Source of the DNA: Candidatus Woesearchaeota archaeon
GTDB taxonomy: Archaea; Nanobdellota; Nanobdellia; Woesearchaeales; UBA11576
Assembly (NCBI GenBank): GCA_016219765.1
Contig: JACRKM010000026.1
Location: 1-10,492, forward strand
Reading direction: 5' to 3'
DNA: 10,492 bases
Shown here: one piece after another, positions 1-10,387 of the stretch
Layout of the letters: every line of letters starts with the position of its first letter
How positions within the stretch are numbered: position 1 is the first letter of the stretch
Notes under the pieces: model-generated
What the model was told of the DNA's origin: nothing
Database searches by the model: none
The model's input: only the letters and a program-made list of their open reading frames with translations
Position numbers and translations under genes: made by a program

Positions 1-199
1 AAGTGCCGGCACAATCACCGCCACCGCCTTTCTGCGAGAGATGGAACTTTTACAAGAGCGCCGACAGGGGGGACGCCCCATCGGGGGATGTCGGCCATCA
101 TGGAATACAGTACACATCACGAGCCTGGCGTGGCGGTGATTGAGCCAAGCGTAGCGAGGCGATGCCGGCACGACTAGTCGGTAGGTTTTCAATAACGCC
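1..199. repeat. Structured repeat element, copy 1 (left end outside the window)
   Basis: This is one of two related copies of a palindromic element; the other is at 7010-7556 in the same orientation. Its right end, GTTTTCAATAACGCC (185-199), is the exact reverse complement of the left end of copy 2 (7010-7024), so the family has terminal inverted repeats. A long helix is visible: CAATCACCGCCAC (12-24) pairs with GTGGCGGTGATTG (130-142), then GCC/GGC (26-28/127-129) after one bulge. GCCGACA (60-66) pairs with TGTCGGC (89-95), and a C-run/G-run stem (75-79/83-87) closes a tiny loop. No credible protein is encoded. It could be a MITE-like mobile element or a structured RNA. Its right end contains the stop codon of the neighbouring minus-strand gene. 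Confidence 0.75.
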
Positions 200-473
200 A
201 CTTATCAATGAAATATATAAAGAGTTCGCCTGCGATGCATCCAGAGTATGCCGATGCTACGTGCTTGATTCCATCTTTCGTGTTGTCGGCAACTTCAGAA
301 AGCATCCCGATAGGGAGGGCCGCGATAAGCCCTGTGAGCAGCATCGCTGGATAGTCGTGGCTTAGATCGTAGTGTGTAACCAGCTCTGCGATATTTCCAA
401 CGATGAATCCTGCAGTGAATGCCTGCACGAGGCTGTTGTCTCCAGTTAATTTCTGCGACAGTTTGTCCATCAT
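189..473 (-). CDS. Small membrane protein, tandem paralog D
   Basis: This is the last of four paralogous genes read leftwards. The 94-aa product has three hydrophobic, glycine- and alanine-rich segments at roughly residues 17-36, 42-60 and 70-88. It shares the family pattern: G-x3-G in the first segment, a short polar stretch ending in D-x-P or similar, then a Y-x-G-x3-G segment near the C terminus (here YSGCIAGELF). It is the most diverged of the set. Two adjacent ATG codons (473 and 470) are possible starts. The final codons and the stop lie in the terminal repeat of the structured element at 1-199, yet the protein is about the same length as its paralogs, so it does not look truncated. The 37-nt gap to the preceding gene suggests one operon. 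I do not recognise the family; glycine-zipper-like segments suggest helix packing or oligomerisation in the membrane. Confidence 0.65.
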   Translation of the reverse strand: MMDKLSQKLTGDNSLVQAFTAGFIVGNIAELVTHYDLSHDYPAMLLTGLIAALPIGMLSEVADNTKDGIKHVASAYSGCIAGELFIYFIDKWRY

Positions 474-4287: not shown

Positions 4288-5271
4288 TTATTTGCCGCCA
4301 ATTCGCATCGGGTGACCACGCCCGCGCTTCTTGTGGTCACCTGCCTGTCTTGCGTAGCGACGGTATTCGTTGACGATCAGCTCGACCGTCGGCCGTATGT
4401 TGCCAGTGTTCTGGTAGGCGCGAAGCGATTCGTAATATGCCTGCCTCTTCGAGAAACTTATGTTCACAGGAGGCAGGCGGTGCCGCAGCAGGATGTTGTT
4501 CAGGAGCAATCGTCCAACCCGCCCGTTGCCGTCCTGGAATGGGTGGATGTTCTCGAACTGGTTATGTACGACTGCAGCAAGGAGTATCGGCGGGTATTTG
4601 TGCTTGTGTTCGTTGTACCAGCGTGTCAGTTCGGTTAGGAGGGTTCGTATCTTTGCAGATGGGGCGCCAAGATGGACGATGTTCCCTTCTTTGTCTTTTA
4701 TCGCTACTTCAATCCCCTTGCTACGGAACTGGCCCGCGAACGGTTTTGTCTTCTTGAACACGATCCGATGCACGCCTTTGATCAGTGCGACCGAGACGTG
4801 GTTCTTTGCCCGTCGGATATATTCGATCGCTTCAACGACACCTTTCGCTTCTTCGATGTCTGCCTCGCTCTTGTCCGGCATCTTGTGCCTTTCGATGATG
4901 TTCCTGACGTCCCTGAGTGTGAGTGTCGACCCTTCGATCGCGTTGGTGTTGTAGGAGAATACCTGTGAGAAGCGGAACCATTGCCGTTCGTCAAGATGGA
5001 TGATGCGCACGTCTGCTCTTGCTTCGATATCCAAAAGCTGCTTGATCTCGGTGCCTGACAGTTGGGTCGTTAGCGGGTCGCGGATCTCTTTGTAGTTCTT
5101 GACCTGCTCCTTCATGAATGATGCTGCCTGCTTTTTTCGTTTGGCTAGCTCGGTTGCCGAGAGGTCTTTTCCCAAATAACGCCGCAGTTTGACGACCTTG
5201 CCGCCCTCCCTCAGCGAGTACACGGCATAGAACTTCTTGCTCTTTCCTGCCTTTCGCACTTCGAGGAACAT
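4288..5271 (-). CDS. Fic-domain protein (predicted AMP-transferase, class II self-inhibited)
   Basis: This 327-aa protein has a basic N-terminal region (1-65; a KKFYAVYSLREGGKVVKLRRYLG stretch predicts a small beta domain followed by a charged helix) and a Fic core at about 100-305. The catalytic motif HPFQDGNGRVGR (243-254) is complete with His243. The inhibitory motif [S/T]xxxE[G/N] is present as TNAIEG (109-114) upstream of the core, as in class II Fic proteins, so its Glu113 should restrain activity until relieved. GQFR (180-183) matches the conserved pre-core loop. Fic enzymes usually transfer AMP onto Ser, Thr or Tyr hydroxyls; the target here is unknown and no antitoxin gene is adjacent. 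The C terminus (309-327) is basic. Start 5271 is set by a TATA box about 27 bp upstream. Matching inverted repeats lie at the promoter and inside the 3' end. Confidence 0.9.
   Translation of the reverse strand: MFLEVRKAGKSKKFYAVYSLREGGKVVKLRRYLGKDLSATELAKRKKQAASFMKEQVKNYKEIRDPLTTQLSGTEIKQLLDIEARADVRIIHLDERQWFRFSQVFSYNTNAIEGSTLTLRDVRNIIERHKMPDKSEADIEEAKGVVEAIEYIRRAKNHVSVALIKGVHRIVFKKTKPFAGQFRSKGIEVAIKDKEGNIVHLGAPSAKIRTLLTELTRWYNEHKHKYPPILLAAVVHNQFENIHPFQDGNGRVGRLLLNNILLRHRLPPVNISFSKRQAYYESLRAYQNTGNIRPTVELIVNEYRRYARQAGDHKKRGRGHPMRIGGK
4311..4341. repeat. Inverted repeat in the 3' end of fic (arms GGTGACCAC)
   Basis: GGTGACCAC (4311-4319) and GTGGTCACC (4333-4341) form perfect 9-bp arms with a 13-nt spacer. 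The site lies within the coding sequence for the basic C terminus. The same half-site sequence flanks the fic TATA box at 5283-5323. Confidence 0.65.
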
Positions 5272-5282
5272 AGGATATAAGA

Positions 5283-5323
5283 GGTGACCACAATATTTAA
5301 ATATTTCTCTTTTTGTGGTCACC
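5283..5323. promoter_or_regulatory. Inverted repeat enclosing the fic TATA box
   Basis: GGTGACCACA (5283-5292) and TGTGGTCACC (5314-5323) are perfect 10-bp arms. The 21-nt spacer holds an AATATTTAAATATT TATA box for fic (minus strand, centred about 5298, 27 bp before ATG 5271). A dimeric regulator bound here would block TBP/TFB access. The identical half-sites at the gene's 3' end suggest the same factor can bind both places. The rightward arm also lies about 40 bp from the TATA box of the divergent radical SAM gene. Confidence 0.65.
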
Positions 5324-5363
5324 CGAACTGCCTGCGGAGGCAGCAGCATCCAGCACGAAAACA

Positions 5364-5370
5364 TTTATAA
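5364..5370 (+). promoter_or_regulatory. TATA box for the radical SAM gene
   Basis: TTTATAA is centred about 27 bp before ATG 5394, fitting a leaderless archaeal transcript and arguing against the longer in-frame N terminus from 5313. Confidence 0.6.
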
Positions 5371-7009: not shown

Positions 7010-7556
7010 GGCGTTATTGAAAACTTCTGAAGTCCGGCACAATCACTGCCACCGCCTTTCCGCGAGAGATTGAGCAATCCTGATTACAGCCGACAAGTTG
7101 GACGCCCCAGCGGCTGTCGATCCCAACGGCTCACTCCGTTGACACGTGCCCTAAGGTGGGTTTCACTGCGTTCAACCCACCGAGGAACACTTGTGGTCAG
7201 CAAAACTTCCCGTGAAGGGAATTTCGCGAAAGCAAAATCGCCTGAAAGCATCAACCGATTTTTCGGTTGTGGCACTCGAACTCCAGTCCGATTTTCGCTT
7301 CGCTCCAATCTGAAGACGAAAGGGGACAGAGTTCGTCGGTATTCGGCAGGCTTCATGCCCGTCTTGAGATGGGTTGCATCCAGATAGTCTGGATGTTCCG
7401 AAAATCTTTGATTTTCGATAATAAGGGAAGCATTCCCTTATGGGGATGTCGGCAATGAAAAATGACTGCGATATCACGAGCTTGGCGTCGCAGTGATTGA
7501 GCCGAGCGTGGCGAGGCGATGCCGGCACGACCCGCCGGTAGGTTTTCAATAATGCC
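7010..7556. repeat. Structured repeat element, copy 2 (complete, with a hairpin-array insertion)
   Basis: The ends are inverted repeats: GGCGTTATTGAAAAC (7010-7024) and GTTTTCAATAATGCC (7542-7556), matching over 14 of 15 positions. Left part 7033-7109 and right part 7441-7556 align with copy 1. The helix CAATCACTGC (7040-7049) with GCAGTGATTG (7490-7499) carries a compensatory change relative to copy 1 (C19:G135 becomes T7047:A7492). Between the inner stem arms CCCCA (7105-7109) and TGGGG (7441-7445) lie about 330 extra nt packed with hairpins. No gene is credible inside. The element fills the space between the SemiSWEET start and the stop of endonuclease III. Confidence 0.8.
7124..7440. repeat. 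Array of consecutive short hairpins inside copy 2
   Basis: Perfect stems follow one another. They are CAACGG/CCGTTG (7124-7141), GGTGGGTT/AACCCACC (7155-7181), TTCCC/GGGAA (7207-7221), CAACCGA/TCGGTTG (7252-7269) and CGAACTC/GAGTTCG (7277-7335, with inner GTCC/GGAC). The last three are CATCCAGA/TCTGGATG (7377-7395), CGAAAATC/GATTTTCG (7399-7417) and TAAGGGAA/TTCCCTTA (7422-7440). Several loops are only 3-4 nt. This density is not seen elsewhere in the window. Confidence 0.75.
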
Positions 7557-7559
7557 GTC

Positions 7560-8219
7560 CTATAATCTCTTTGTCACGCCTGTCTTCGGGCACAGCTCTT
7601 CTATAGGGCACTTGCTGCAGTAAGGCAGCGGAGCTTGACAGACTGCTCGGCCGTGCGCTTTAAGTAACCACTGCACTTCCTTCCAGTGTCGTTGTGGAAT
7701 AAGCTTGTTGAGATCCTCTTCGATTTTTTCCGGATTCTTCTGCTTGGTCCAGCCGAGGCGGCAGCTCACACGGATCACGTGTGTATCGACTACGATCCCG
7801 GGAACGATTTCAAATGCATTTGTAAGAATGACAATCGCAGTCTTTCTGCCGATCCCTGGAAGTTCGACGAGGTGATCGAGCTCTTTAGGAACCTGTCCAC
7901 GATGCTTCTCTGCAAGAATCTTGCATGCTGCAATGATATTCTTTGCCTTGTTGCCAGCAAATGAGACTTTACTGACATGCTTCATGAGATCGTCGACGCT
8001 CGCTTTTGCATAATCCTCTGCTTTCTTGTACTCTTTGAATAATCCGTTCGTCGCTTCGTTAACTACTTCGTCGCTCACTTGCGCAGAAAGGATTGCAGCT
8101 ACGAGAAGATCGAGCGGAGTTTTGAAGTTAAGATAATATTTTGCATTAGGATATATTTTTTTGAGCGCCTTAAGAACTTCTAGTGCCTTATCTTGGTTGT
8201 TGCTAACATCTTTTTCCAT
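7560..8219 (-). CDS. nth: Endonuclease III (DNA glycosylase/AP lyase)
   Basis: This 219-aa protein has the complete endonuclease III signature. It has an ILSAQVSD segment (43-50), helix-hairpin-helix LPGIGRKTA (120-128) with catalytic Lys126, and VDTH with catalytic Asp145. The C-terminal 4Fe-4S loop is C-x6-C-x2-C-x5-C (C194, C201, C204, C210). It removes oxidised pyrimidines and cleaves the resulting abasic site in base excision repair. Length and residues are standard, with no sign of damage. The ATG at 8219 is preceded by GGTG 8 nt upstream, and a TATA box lies about 35 bp upstream, just past the stop of the preceding gene. The stop codon is 3 nt from the right end of structured element copy 2. 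Confidence 0.97.
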   Translation of the reverse strand: MEKDVSNNQDKALEVLKALKKIYPNAKYYLNFKTPLDLLVAAILSAQVSDEVVNEATNGLFKEYKKAEDYAKASVDDLMKHVSKVSFAGNKAKNIIAACKILAEKHRGQVPKELDHLVELPGIGRKTAIVILTNAFEIVPGIVVDTHVIRVSCRLGWTKQKNPEKIEEDLNKLIPQRHWKEVQWLLKAHGRAVCQAPLPYCSKCPIEELCPKTGVTKRL

Positions 8220-8264: not shown

Positions 8265-8750
8265 TCAGTCAAGGTCAGCAATTCTTGGATGCGCGCTAAA
8301 TGACGTGATCAGTTTACGGAATGCCGTGTTTGATAGCGCTATGGACTCCGTGTTTAAGTTGGGATGAAAACTGAGCTCGTCAGCATTCCAGACTTTCGAA
8401 TCAACGACTGTCTGTGTCATTTTGTTCATATCATTGACGAGTCCAAGCGGCGACACTGCTCCCGGCGTTAGCTTGAGAATATAGAACAATTCTTCTTCTT
8501 TGGCAAACGCCAGCTTTTTGATTCCAAGGATCTTCTCAAGCTTCTTCATAGCGAGCCGTTCAGATGCCGGCATGATAACAAGAAAGAATTTGCCGGTGTC
8601 TTTTTCTCGCAAAAAGAGATTCTTGCACGCCATGCCCGGAACATCCTTGCAATGAATCTCGGCTTCTTCACACGTGAATACTGCAGGATGCCCATATAAT
8701 CTGTATTCGATACCGTTCTTTTTAAGATACTCTTCAACGTACTTTTCCAT
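8265..8750 (-). CDS. YbaK/ProX-type aminoacyl-tRNA deacylase
   Basis: This 161-aa stand-alone protein has the INS/YbaK editing-domain fold. KNLFLREK (43-50) contains the conserved Lys43, and FAKEEELFYILKLTPGAVSPLGLVND (82-107) carries the GxxxP loop as PGAVSPLG. HPNLNTESI (129-137) matches the conserved strand near the C terminus. Features match the ProXp-ala/PrdX group, which hydrolyses Ala mischarged on tRNA(Pro); the exact substrate could also be another small amino acid. ATG 8750 is supported by a TATA box about 25 bp upstream (leaderless). It is co-oriented with the PafA/Dop-like gene and nth but seems to be transcribed from its own promoter. Confidence 0.9.
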   Translation of the reverse strand: MEKYVEEYLKKNGIEYRLYGHPAVFTCEEAEIHCKDVPGMACKNLFLREKDTGKFFLVIMPASERLAMKKLEKILGIKKLAFAKEEELFYILKLTPGAVSPLGLVNDMNKMTQTVVDSKVWNADELSFHPNLNTESIALSNTAFRKLITSFSAHPRIADLD

Positions 8751-8803: not shown

Positions 8804-10387
8804 TTAGCGATTTCGCTGTGCTAAAAATGATAGAATAGGTGAAATAAATGGTCGCATTCGTGAAACAACTTGTTCGATGACAGAACCCGTGTGGTACACT
8901 TGCACAGAATTGACGAATTCATCTACTTCATCAACGGCTTTCTTGGTGGTATCGTAGGGAGTTGGGAGGGACATGTTGTGCATTGCTTTGATGCCGAATT
9001 TGTCTACTGTGTACCAAATCGCATCCCAGGACACATGTGTGATCTTTATTACCTTCCCTCTTCTTTTCCAGTACTCAAGCCGATTTAGCACCGCGTTACG
9101 TGTCAATGCCCTGCTGCCTTCTGGCGGTCTTAATGCTGCAACGCGGATAGCTTCCTCGCACAAAAGTGTGTCCATCATTCCGTTCTTCACAAGAAGGTTG
9201 TACAATCCTTTATCAGGATCGATGTCGTGGTATTGAAGATTGATCTGTTCAAGTGTTCCGCTTGTGGTGTCTGGTTTTGCTGCGCGGCTATCTAGAAGTG
9301 TTTTTTTTGCCACCCAATCAAGCCGCCGCTCAAGGCAGGGATCATTGTCGGCAAGTCCTGCGAGTGTTTCTTCCCAGATACTGATGGTGTTGCACAGTTC
9401 GTTGTCTTGTCGTGCACGCGCCCATTGTTGCGCACTTTGCAGATAAGCTTTTTGCACGTCAAGGGCGCTCAGCCATTGTCCTCCTACCAATTGATGTTGC
9501 GCTTTAAAATCCATCGTTTTATTGAGTGCGCGCAATACTCCCAACCCGTCGATGAAGTTAAGGTGACCGAATAGATACCCGTCTTCTATCATGCCGAGCA
9601 CGATGCCCGTGGAGCCATACTTGAGATATGTTTGGTATTCACTCATGTTGGCATCGCCGCACACGACATGCAGCCGTCCAAGCGCACGCGCGTGGGGCTC
9701 GTCGCGCCAATTGAACAGTCCCTTGTCTCCGGTCGTTCTCATCCTGCTAAGCATTTTTATGTACGGAATGCGCTGCGAGAGCTGAAACACAGGTTTTTCA
9801 TCTTCGCGCACGAGGCTGCCTGAGCCAGACCACATAAAACGCGTGATGAGAAATGGGAGGATGTGCTGATAGATGGTGTACAATGCCCCGGTGTTTTTTT
9901 TCGATGATTCAGTAGATAAACTGGCTTCATTGATAGCTTGTAAGCGAATGTCCAAGGGTGCTGAAGATCGGTGGAGCTTGTGAGAATCAAAACTGTAGTT
10001 CTCATGGCAGCCAAACGTGATTGATGGCAGGCCACAGGCAGGTTCCTGCGAAGTTGCTGTATTGTGCCGAAAGAAGCGAAGCCGCCCTTTCACGATTGAA
10101 TTTGTATTATCATCAACGTGTCTAGTAAATTGCTTTGCAAGATTATTTAGTATGTGTTCACCTGCTTTGCTGTAAGCGACAACATCGTGCGCGCTTAGGC
10201 ATTCAGGTGTCGCATATTCAATATGACCAGTATCTTTGTATACGCGAGCTTGATTACGCGCGAATTCAAGATGGCATTGTGCACCTATCAGTATGTCATC
10301 ATAATTTACCTTGCTATGTGCCTGTCCATCATCGCTGATGAATGCGCAGCCGTACTCTGTTTCTTCGCCGAACACTCTTTGTTTCAT
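8804..10387 (-). CDS. PafA/Dop-family carboxylate-amine ligase (Pup ligase-like)
   Basis: This 527-aa protein has the glutamine-synthetase-like fold of Pup ligase PafA and depupylase/deamidase Dop. Motifs in order are GEETEYG (7-13, metal/ATP-binding Glu9), ARVYKDTGHIEYATPEC (47-63, candidate catalytic Asp52) and GCHENY (126-131). Then come LSQR (203-206), RDEPHA (228-233), RLHVVCGDANMSE (238-250), GGQWLSALDVQ (302-312), DWVAKK (357-362) and YHDID (386-390). Glu9 to Asp52 spans 43 residues, so the long Dop-loop of Dop enzymes is absent, favouring a PafA-like ligase. Other details (KAGEH, FQLSQR, GDAN) recall Dop. A roughly 10-residue insertion precedes GCHENY, and the C-terminal tail (about 490-527) has no counterpart I recall. 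PafA ligates the C-terminal Glu of Pup to substrate lysines. ATG 10387 has GGAG 7 nt upstream; an in-frame TTG at 10405 is less likely. Confidence 0.9.
   Translation of the reverse strand: MKQRVFGEETEYGCAFISDDGQAHSKVNYDDILIGAQCHLEFARNQARVYKDTGHIEYATPECLSAHDVVAYSKAGEHILNNLAKQFTRHVDDNTNSIVKGRLRFFRHNTATSQEPACGLPSITFGCHENYSFDSHKLHRSSAPLDIRLQAINEASLSTESSKKNTGALYTIYQHILPFLITRFMWSGSGSLVREDEKPVFQLSQRIPYIKMLSRMRTTGDKGLFNWRDEPHARALGRLHVVCGDANMSEYQTYLKYGSTGIVLGMIEDGYLFGHLNFIDGLGVLRALNKTMDFKAQHQLVGGQWLSALDVQKAYLQSAQQWARARQDNELCNTISIWEETLAGLADNDPCLERRLDWVAKKTLLDSRAAKPDTTSGTLEQINLQYHDIDPDKGLYNLLVKNGMMDTLLCEEAIRVAALRPPEGSRALTRNAVLNRLEYWKRRGKVIKITHVSWDAIWYTVDKFGIKAMHNMSLPTPYDTTKKAVDEVDEFVNSVQVYHTGSVIEQVVSRMRPFISPILSFLAQRNR

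Follow-up and report, generated by a model that had tools for sequence, protein, structure and literature searches.

A PafA-like paralog on a Woesearchaeota contig and apparent Pup-proteasome gene clusters in related archaea

The stretch of DNA considered here (the window) is an entire contig of 10,492 nt, JACRKM010000026.1, from the genome assembly of a Candidatus Woesearchaeota archaeon (GCA_016219765.1, hereafter G000; 1.09 Mb, 178 contigs, 81% complete). At one end it carries, on the minus strand, a gene whose product can be placed firmly, by its sequence, in the superfamily of the Pup ligase PafA and the depupylase Dop. To our knowledge, the Pup tag-and-destroy kit is known from bacteria only. 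Of wider interest than the gene itself is an archaeal Pup-proteasome cluster in relatives of this organism, to which the window gene is a paralogous outlier. A sequence-only reading of the window had called a PafA/Dop-like open reading frame (ORF) at this place, and the ORF proved real, with all six of the motifs quoted for it present. The features of the gene that matter for what follows are these:

8804..10387, minus strand: PafA-like protein of the PafA/Dop (PF03136) family, 527 amino acids (aa) from its ATG, no Dop loop; proposed archaeal Pup-ligase paralog
10349..10369, minus strand: GEETEYG, residues 7-13, nucleotide-binding GhExE-type motif; E9 and E11 are invariant in a 53-row alignment
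10202..10237, minus strand: KDTGHIEYATPE, residues 51-62, holding D52, H55, E57 and, by alignment, an Ala at the Dop-Ser/PafA-Ala position
9995..10012, minus strand: GCHENY, residues 126-131; H128 aligns with Dop His155
9722..9763, minus strand: alpha-loop region, residues 209-222, fitting neither the PafA nor the Dop consensus at the diagnostic positions given in Table 1 of PMC7947786
9689..9706, minus strand: RDEPHA, residues 228-233; R228 aligns with Dop Arg227 and H232 with Dop His231
8810..8887, minus strand: additional C-terminal helix, residues 501-526, past the end of most members of the clade and predicted with pLDDT 61-75

The ORF matches the Pfam model Pup_ligase (PF03136) at 313.2 bits, against a cut-off of 25. 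It retains E9, E11, R48, Y50, D52, H55, E57, H128, R206, R228, H232, R238 and H240. Identity to Acidothermus Dop extends to 25 of 28 active-site and neighbouring columns, the exceptions being Ala at 101, Lys at 221 (K222, in place of a conserved Arg within the alpha-loop) and Val at 243, and the protein matches 52 of the 71 columns in which one residue makes up at least 98% of 111 bacterial rows. D52 aligns with the catalytic Asp94 of Acidothermus Dop, a site described in the available parts of PMC8599861 and PMC7947786, the latter of which also gives the role of the GhExE-type motif in nucleotide binding. The predicted model has the glutamine-synthetase-type fold of solved PafA and Dop, and superposes on Pup-bound entries of both across 433-437 residues, a match over the whole model and not over the Pup groove specifically. 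In the similarity list (the best 120 of 2,812 matches, from 7,998 candidates scored), the closest entry is a named Woesearchaeota protein, P0002, at 67% identity, followed by P0003-P0009 at 44-51% and then by bacterial-type Pup ligases and Dops at 28-34%. P0002 and P0005-P0007 are already annotated at source as 'proteasome accessory factor PafA2 family protein'.

Judged by sequence, a complete Pup-proteasome kit appears to be present in related archaea. The one same-genus genome listed, G001, has five PF03136 genes, four of them in a single cluster on contig C222, which reads Mpa-type ATPase, Dop-type gene, small ORF (...TSAQ), PrcB, PrcA and three genes of the window clade. Two further genomes of the order have comparable clusters: on G207:C109 a short-loop PafA-like gene is followed by Mpa, Dop, an 87-aa ORF (...SGGQ), PrcB and PrcA, and on G010:C21 a PafA-like gene is divergent from Mpa, Dop, an 83-aa ORF (...KSGQ), PrcB and PrcA. 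A genome of the class, G510, carries on C6 an Mpa gene, a Dop-type gene broken into two overlapping frames, an ORF of 62 aa (...TGGQ) and another PF03136 gene that runs off the contig end, with no PrcBA in the stretch read; a C-terminal PF03136 piece lies at the end of G510:C1. The Mpa-type ATPases all match TIGR03689 first (G001 349.7, G207 272.5, G010 288.0 and G510 355.4 bits; cut-off 504.75), and in G001 that model covers residues 2-506 of 512, with the PAN model at 163.9 bits. The Dop of the G001 cluster scores 489.1 bits with TIGR03688 (cut-off 492.3) against 380.3 with the PafA model and falls inside the Dop clade; it has Met instead of His at column 95. PrcB is better matched by the bacterial than by the archaeal beta model in all three order genomes (168.7 v 102.4 bits in G001, 158.9 v 64.9 and 171.2 v 97.5 in the others), as is PrcA by its bacterial model (82.7 v 20.2 in G001, 48.1 v none, 62.6 v 36.5). 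All of these subunits lie below the equivalog cut-offs, though they are bacterial-type by score. Because this second core particle is bacterial-type, an older transfer of the entire kit is likely. A recent transfer of the window gene from bacteria, which the sequence-only reading had allowed for, is not supported, given its membership of a nine-row clade with a long stem and a gene neighbourhood common to the same-genus ortholog.

These hosts have other proteasome genes as well. Away from the cluster contigs, strong PF00227 genes occur in G001 (175-182 bits), G010 (164-177) and G207 (179); they presumably encode the native archaeal proteasome, and each of the three genomes also has a PAN-sized ATPase. 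A PAN-sized ATPase and a pair of strong PF00227 genes are likewise found in G033, with no full-length Mpa match in this 100% complete genome. G510 (contigs C6 and C16) has an Mpa with Pup, and neither a dedicated PrcBA nor a PAN-sized match was found; this genome has two strong PF00227 genes, and its Mpa may therefore feed the native archaeal 20S particle. That these contigs belong to archaea is indicated by archaeal-type genes beside the PF03136 genes: G207:C109 bears TFIIB and a type II methionyl aminopeptidase, G001:C222 an AdoMet synthetase, G510:C1 an RNA polymerase B that fits archaeal models best, and G001:C80 a Dph2 domain.

The small ORFs beside these genes are candidate Pups. Actinobacterial loci supplied 15 Pup ORFs for a bacterial-Pup hidden Markov model (HMM), with which 1,436 ORFs of 40 aa or more were searched in 17 archaeal-genome loci, selected mostly for holding these genes. 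Ranks 1, 2 and 3 went to the candidates of G001 (E 0.001), G207 (0.1) and G510 (0.74), the next ORF following at 2.7, and this ranking is independent evidence for the small ORFs as Pup. The Pfam Pup model PF05639 reached the G001 candidate at E 4.6e-4 (21.5 bits; cut-off 27) and that of G207 at 0.16, and gave nothing for the candidates of G010, G510, G033 and G214. In a profile-profile comparison, the four archaeal tails ending in Gln (Pup-Q) aligned with bacterial Pup, C-terminus on C-terminus, with a probability of 93.4. A C-terminal Gln or Glu is found in 6/6 candidates versus 34/273 background ORFs, and a [GSAD][GA][QE] tail in 6/6 versus 1/273; these counts are no blind test, because the endings had drawn attention to the candidates, and the second pattern was framed with the tails already known. 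The small proteins are presumed to be disordered and conjugated.

The last two candidates stand in a simpler setting. G033:C7 (locus L018, 8388-9918) and G214:C92 (L031, 2466-4246) each have one PafA-like gene with an adjacent small ORF ending in Glu (Pup-E; ...GSAE in G033, ...GDGE in G214) and no second PF03136 gene. Pup-Q accompanies a Dop-type gene in 4/4 genomes, and the two Pup-E genomes (G033, 100% complete; G214, 76%) have a single PF03136 gene, not of Dop type, with the typing of the G214 copy unsure (PafA 174.3 v Dop 166.8 bits). This is as expected if deamidation needs Dop, but Dop also removes tags.

According to the available text of PMC7947786 and PMC8599861, PafA and Dop are told apart by the Dop loop and a set of diagnostic columns. 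With rows typed as PafA or Dop by name or tree place, the loop interval is 26-28 residues in bacterial PafA (n=5), 50-58 in bacterial Dop (n=5) and 53-98 in the archaeal Mpa-adjacent copies (n=4); in the window protein it is 23, and in its clade 23-25. The Dop-Ser101 column holds Ala in 9/9 window-clade rows and Ser in 4/4 archaeal Mpa-adjacent copies, and Phe occupies column 84 in 8/9 rows of the clade. At columns 101 (Ala), 84 (Phe) and 96 (Gly) the window protein has the PafA residue. A predicted resemblance of its alpha-loop to the loop-like state in Dop was dropped as a marker, as bacterial PafA was likewise modelled without a helix there.

The PafA/Dop membership given by the sequence-only reading holds. 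In our main tree of 32 rows the window protein falls in a separate clade of nine rows, supported at 100/100, on a long stem and separate from both bacterial PafA and Dop. Five of these rows come from archaeal genomes and four from metagenome contigs, and for the latter 'archaeal' therefore rests on the tree. Bacterial Dop and three archaeal Mpa-adjacent copies form one clade (97/98) with the window clade outside it, while the window clade and the other copies of G207, G033 and G214 make up a 98/98 group, bacterial PafA being a third lineage (61/86). Several rows were set aside for this tree, namely G397 and G010_preMpa, which are long, the two pieces from G510 and a number of bacterial sequences; an earlier tree of 39 rows, with those included, left the position of the window clade open. 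There is, in addition, an argument by elimination: genomes with a Dop-type gene and Pup-Q need a ligase, so the non-Dop copies are its sole candidates. The protein is not classed here as a PafA equivalog, because it does not reach the TIGR03686 cut-off and its alpha-loop differs, yet it is most likely PafA-like in action. The third tandem paralog of G001:C222 (L014, 10226-11722) deserves separate mention: in place of RDEPHA it has RNVPLA, a change that affects the Glu229 and His231 columns, and it may be impaired or specialised.

Taken together, we favour, with some reserve, the reading that the window protein is an orphan archaeal ligase-type paralog that acts in trans with Pup. Modelled on bacterial PafA, it would bind Mg-ATP in its GEETE cradle and phosphorylate a short Pup protein on the gamma-carboxylate of its C-terminal glutamate; the acyl group would be handed to a lysine of the target protein, with D52 as the base. 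We infer a ligase rather than a hydrolase, and the presence of a Pup in the window strain. The one Pup candidate in the genus, that of G001 (...TSAQ), ends in Gln and would therefore have to be deamidated by Dop beforehand. Degradation would follow once the Mpa-type ATPase and the second, bacterial-type 20S proteasome, which exists alongside the native archaeal one, had received the tagged target. The G001 ortholog of the window gene would be a stand-alone fourth ligase-type paralog next to the three clustered ones, acting in trans on Pup made elsewhere and probably with its own set of targets.

The archaeal setting assumed by the sequence-only reading was borne out. Contig C88 of G000 carries an archaeal proteasome alpha gene and SBDS, and PF01941, matched solely in the archaeal controls, is found in the assembly. 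Small-subunit (16S) rRNA was not found in the assembly, and 16S typing hence failed. The 4-mer profile of the window is close to those of five other G000 contigs (0.84-0.89) and far from those of two bacterial PafA loci (0.03 and 0.06), which are also much GC-richer. The host genome is archaeal, of Woesearchaeota kin. On the window, the gene is followed by these neighbours:

8265..8750, minus strand: aminoacyl-tRNA editing domain protein (PF04073); no counterpart among ORFs of at least 80 aa between the matching G001:C80 genes
7560..8219, minus strand: HhH-GPD DNA glycosylase of endonuclease III type; syntenic with G001:C80, 75% aa identity
6629..6964, minus strand: 111-aa protein, no Pfam match; syntenic with G001:C80, 81% aa identity
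5313..6554, plus strand: radical SAM protein; syntenic with G001:C80, 79% aa identity

The window gene and its G001:C80 ortholog both stand with the radical SAM, 111-aa and endonuclease III type genes; the two PafA-like proteins are 67% identical, less than any of these neighbours. The ratio of nonsynonymous to synonymous substitution rates (dN/dS) between the two is 0.23, and the window gene is therefore under purifying selection. Elsewhere on this archaeal contig there is a Fic-domain protein (PF02661, 72.5 bits; 4288-5364, minus strand) and a run of three consecutive small proteins of 100, 104 and 94 aa (1140-1442, 511-825 and 189-473, minus strand) that are similar by eye; the single one scanned, 189-473, had no Pfam match. 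Two dispersed repeats, one of 84 nt at 89% (116-199 and 7473-7556) and one of 40 nt at 93% (6-45 and 7034-7073), are each ~7 kb apart, and their second copies lie in the gap that separates the 111-aa and endonuclease genes.

The points that weigh against an orphan Pup ligase begin in the window's own genome. G000 has one PF03136 gene only, and no Pup, Dop, full-length Mpa-type ATPase or bacterial-type PrcBA was found in this 81% complete assembly. The idea of an archaeal tagging system gained strong support from the clusters of three order genomes and G510, but no partners were found in the assembly of the window itself. The small Pup-like protein that the sequence-only reading had proposed to look for was not found in G000. 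The window has 90 ORFs of 40 aa or more; in the 40-150 aa range, seven have Glu or Gln as the last residue, none with a Pup-like tail. Near the G001:C80 ortholog two small ORFs end in this way, neither with such a tail. On its upstream side the window gene meets the end of the contig 105 bases before its start codon. The G001 Pup, used as a query, had no match in G000, G033, G214, G397 or G151, a search of little power because the candidate Pups of G033 and G214 escaped it. Contig C137 of G000 has 88.8% nucleotide identity to G001:C222 on the MetE side, up to base 7958, ~510 base pairs (bp) short of the G001 Mpa start; the remaining 790 bp of the contig are unrelated to G001:C222. At the G001 spacing Mpa would start on this contig, and the cluster is therefore not at that place; the other flank in G000 breaks inside AdoMet synthetase. 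The search for a proteasome and its ATPases, suggested at the same time, returned the archaeal alpha subunit on C88, but no full-length Mpa and no match at the PAN level of the relatives (222-237 bits) in G000. A 411-aa match on C2 scores 146 bits, like a second G001 protein. Since neither psmB nor a PAN-level match was found in G000, assembly gaps matter, and the cluster may have been lost, moved or left unsampled in the window species.

A third proteasome-like set, a divergent one, lies on contig C78 of G000: an AAA protein of 811 aa (L021, 3547-5982, plus strand) and two proteasome-type ORFs (L012, 1390-2304 and 2289-3260, plus strand), the first with a Thr1-like start (HTSLLALLYNKG) and without an NCBIfam match. 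Its orthologs lie at G001:C197 (77-85% identity). As the ATPase of the set resembles the G001 Mpa in the AAA core alone (27%, 128 residues), the set was left out of the Pup system.

Other contrary points concern the protein and its kin, and several of them would suit a second hydrolase, a depupylase or deamidase that has lost its Dop loop and edits or recycles Pup conjugates. The NCBIfam scores for PafA (TIGR03686, 255.7 bits) and Dop (TIGR03688, 248.0 bits) are almost equal and far below the cut-offs of 551.3 and 492.3; columns 80, 81, 93 and 95 and the alpha-loop at 210-220 agree with neither enzyme; and the solved structures nearest to the predicted model are Dop entries, with PafA behind. 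The Dop-Trp453 column holds Trp in 9/9 window-clade rows versus Val in five bacterial PafA rows, and an approximately unbiased test rejected neither a grouping with Dop (p 0.183) nor one with bacterial PafA (p 0.174). Dop activity, moreover, does not require the Dop loop, according to the available text of PMC7947786. The Arg90 or His231 column is changed in some window-clade rows, and the His97 column is altered in non-Dop copies (Tyr in G207, Gly in G010), so that the elimination argument is not strict. Among the candidate Pups, the HMM placed that of G010 at E 24 and left those of G033 and G214 unlisted up to E 50, and the loop interval, 25 in the G033 copy, is 46 in that of G214, near the Dop range. 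Even so, we think a hydrolase unlikely: G001, G010 and G207 already own a Dop-type gene in the Dop position, which leaves the ligase role to the non-Dop copies; the window protein lacks the Dop loop and carries Ala at the Ser101 column; and three members of its clade follow PrcA in G001, the position of bacterial pafA. The sequence-only reading had raised a peptide ligase with another small substrate, and this stays as a rival of about the same low standing: the orphan would no longer serve Pup and would use a different peptide with a C-terminal Glu, or a metabolite bearing glutamate. The gene stands alone in both G000 and G001, away from any small ORF with a Pup-like tail, the G000 assembly yielded no Pup in a low-power search, and the protein changes faster than its neighbours, selection being less strict than in the radical SAM (dN/dS 0.12), 111-aa (0.04) and endonuclease III type (0.12) genes. 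Yet three paralogs sharing most of the residues sit in the G001 Pup cluster, the predicted model aligns with Pup-bound PafA and Dop, and a Pup could be missed in an 81% assembly in which neither psmB nor a PAN-level match was found.

The same absences could mark the gene as a decaying remnant in a species that has lost its Pup system, with the break in G001 synteny between MetE and the place of Mpa as a trace of the loss. A full-length frame, retained active-site residues and the dN/dS against the G001 ortholog make this very unlikely. Least credible of all is that the contigs are bacterial DNA misbinned with archaea, as might be supposed of a family otherwise bacterial in the literature covered and an assembly in which no 16S was found; the archaeal-type genes share contigs with PF03136 genes (G207:C109, G001:C222, G510:C1, G001:C80), the window profile is near its own genome and far from the two bacterial loci, and the MetE-side synteny recurs in two assemblies.

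The distribution of PF03136 in these archaea is rare and patchy, with copies in 5/193 relatives, 7/352 genomes of the order and 6/371 of the phylum (overlapping sets). Nine distinct genomes are involved: G000, G001, G010, G033, G151, G207, G214, G397 and G510, the copy of G151 being a fragment containing a stop. Lone genes of the family also occur on G397:C15 (L032, 6112-7707), a very divergent copy beside TldD/TldE-like genes (by eye), and in Nanoarchaeota archaeon UBA10106 (L108, 10001-11293), where it adjoins an IF-5A gene; no Pup-like ORF was seen near either.

With bacterial PafA (TIGR03686; C. glutamicum 4b0t and 4bjr), the window protein shares a near-full-length predicted fold, the nucleotide motif, the catalytic Asp/His/Arg set, the missing Dop loop and Ala at the Ser101 column, and three G001 paralogs follow PrcA. 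It differs in its clade, its divergent alpha-loop, Trp rather than Val at 453, an identity of 30-36% to the bacterial PafA/Dop rows of the alignment, and the four ligase-type copies of G001. With Dop (TIGR03688; Acidothermus 4b0r and 7oxy) it has in common the fold, the active-site residues and the Trp453 column, but neither the Dop loop nor Ser101, and it lies outside the Dop clade. The G001:C222 cluster has the parts, the order and the bacterial-type PrcB/PrcA of the actinobacterial one; the bacterial order mpa-dop-pup-prcB-prcA-pafA and the Pup tails GGQ/GGE are given in the available text of a 2012 review (PMC3511204). Unlike the actinobacterial case, the archaeal hosts also have native-kind PF00227 genes and a PAN-sized ATPase, G001 has several ligase-type paralogs, and the tails include ...TSAQ, ...KSGQ, ...GSAE and ...GDGE besides two ...GGQ. 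Outside Actinobacteria, the UBact systems of Gram-negative bacterial phyla combine a Pup-like modifier ending in Gln or Glu with a PafA-type enzyme; these were described in bacteria, whereas the hosts here are archaea. Archaea themselves have SAMP, a beta-grasp modifier attached by E1-type chemistry, with enzymes unrelated to PafA/Dop. SAMP is likewise a proteasome-linked protein tag of archaea (PMC7226565, in its available part). As for pupylation, the available parts of Iyer 2008 (PMC2588565), PMC3511204 and a 2025 review (PMC12288473) discuss it for bacteria only; the first lists Pup outside actinobacteria in bacterial groups, and the last mentions archaea for having proteasomes. No report of archaeal pupylation appeared among the matches listed in the open literature, a body outside which stand most subscription papers and all bioRxiv preprints.

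We propose tentatively, as a prospect somewhat short of even, that some Woesearchaeota and related DPANN archaea run a full Pup-proteasome pathway parallel to the native proteasome, and that in one genus four ligase paralogs, the window protein among them, share the targets in the manner of eukaryotic E3 enzymes. In Actinobacteria, a single Pup ligase is described as serving hundreds of targets (PMC6476560, available text), and target choice by a Pup ligase could be tested directly in a lineage with several ligase-type paralogs. A working pathway in archaea would mean that there are organisms in which two different 20S proteasomes, each with a feeding ATPase, occur side by side, and these archaea would provide a new data point on the origin of bacterial proteasomes and of Pup.

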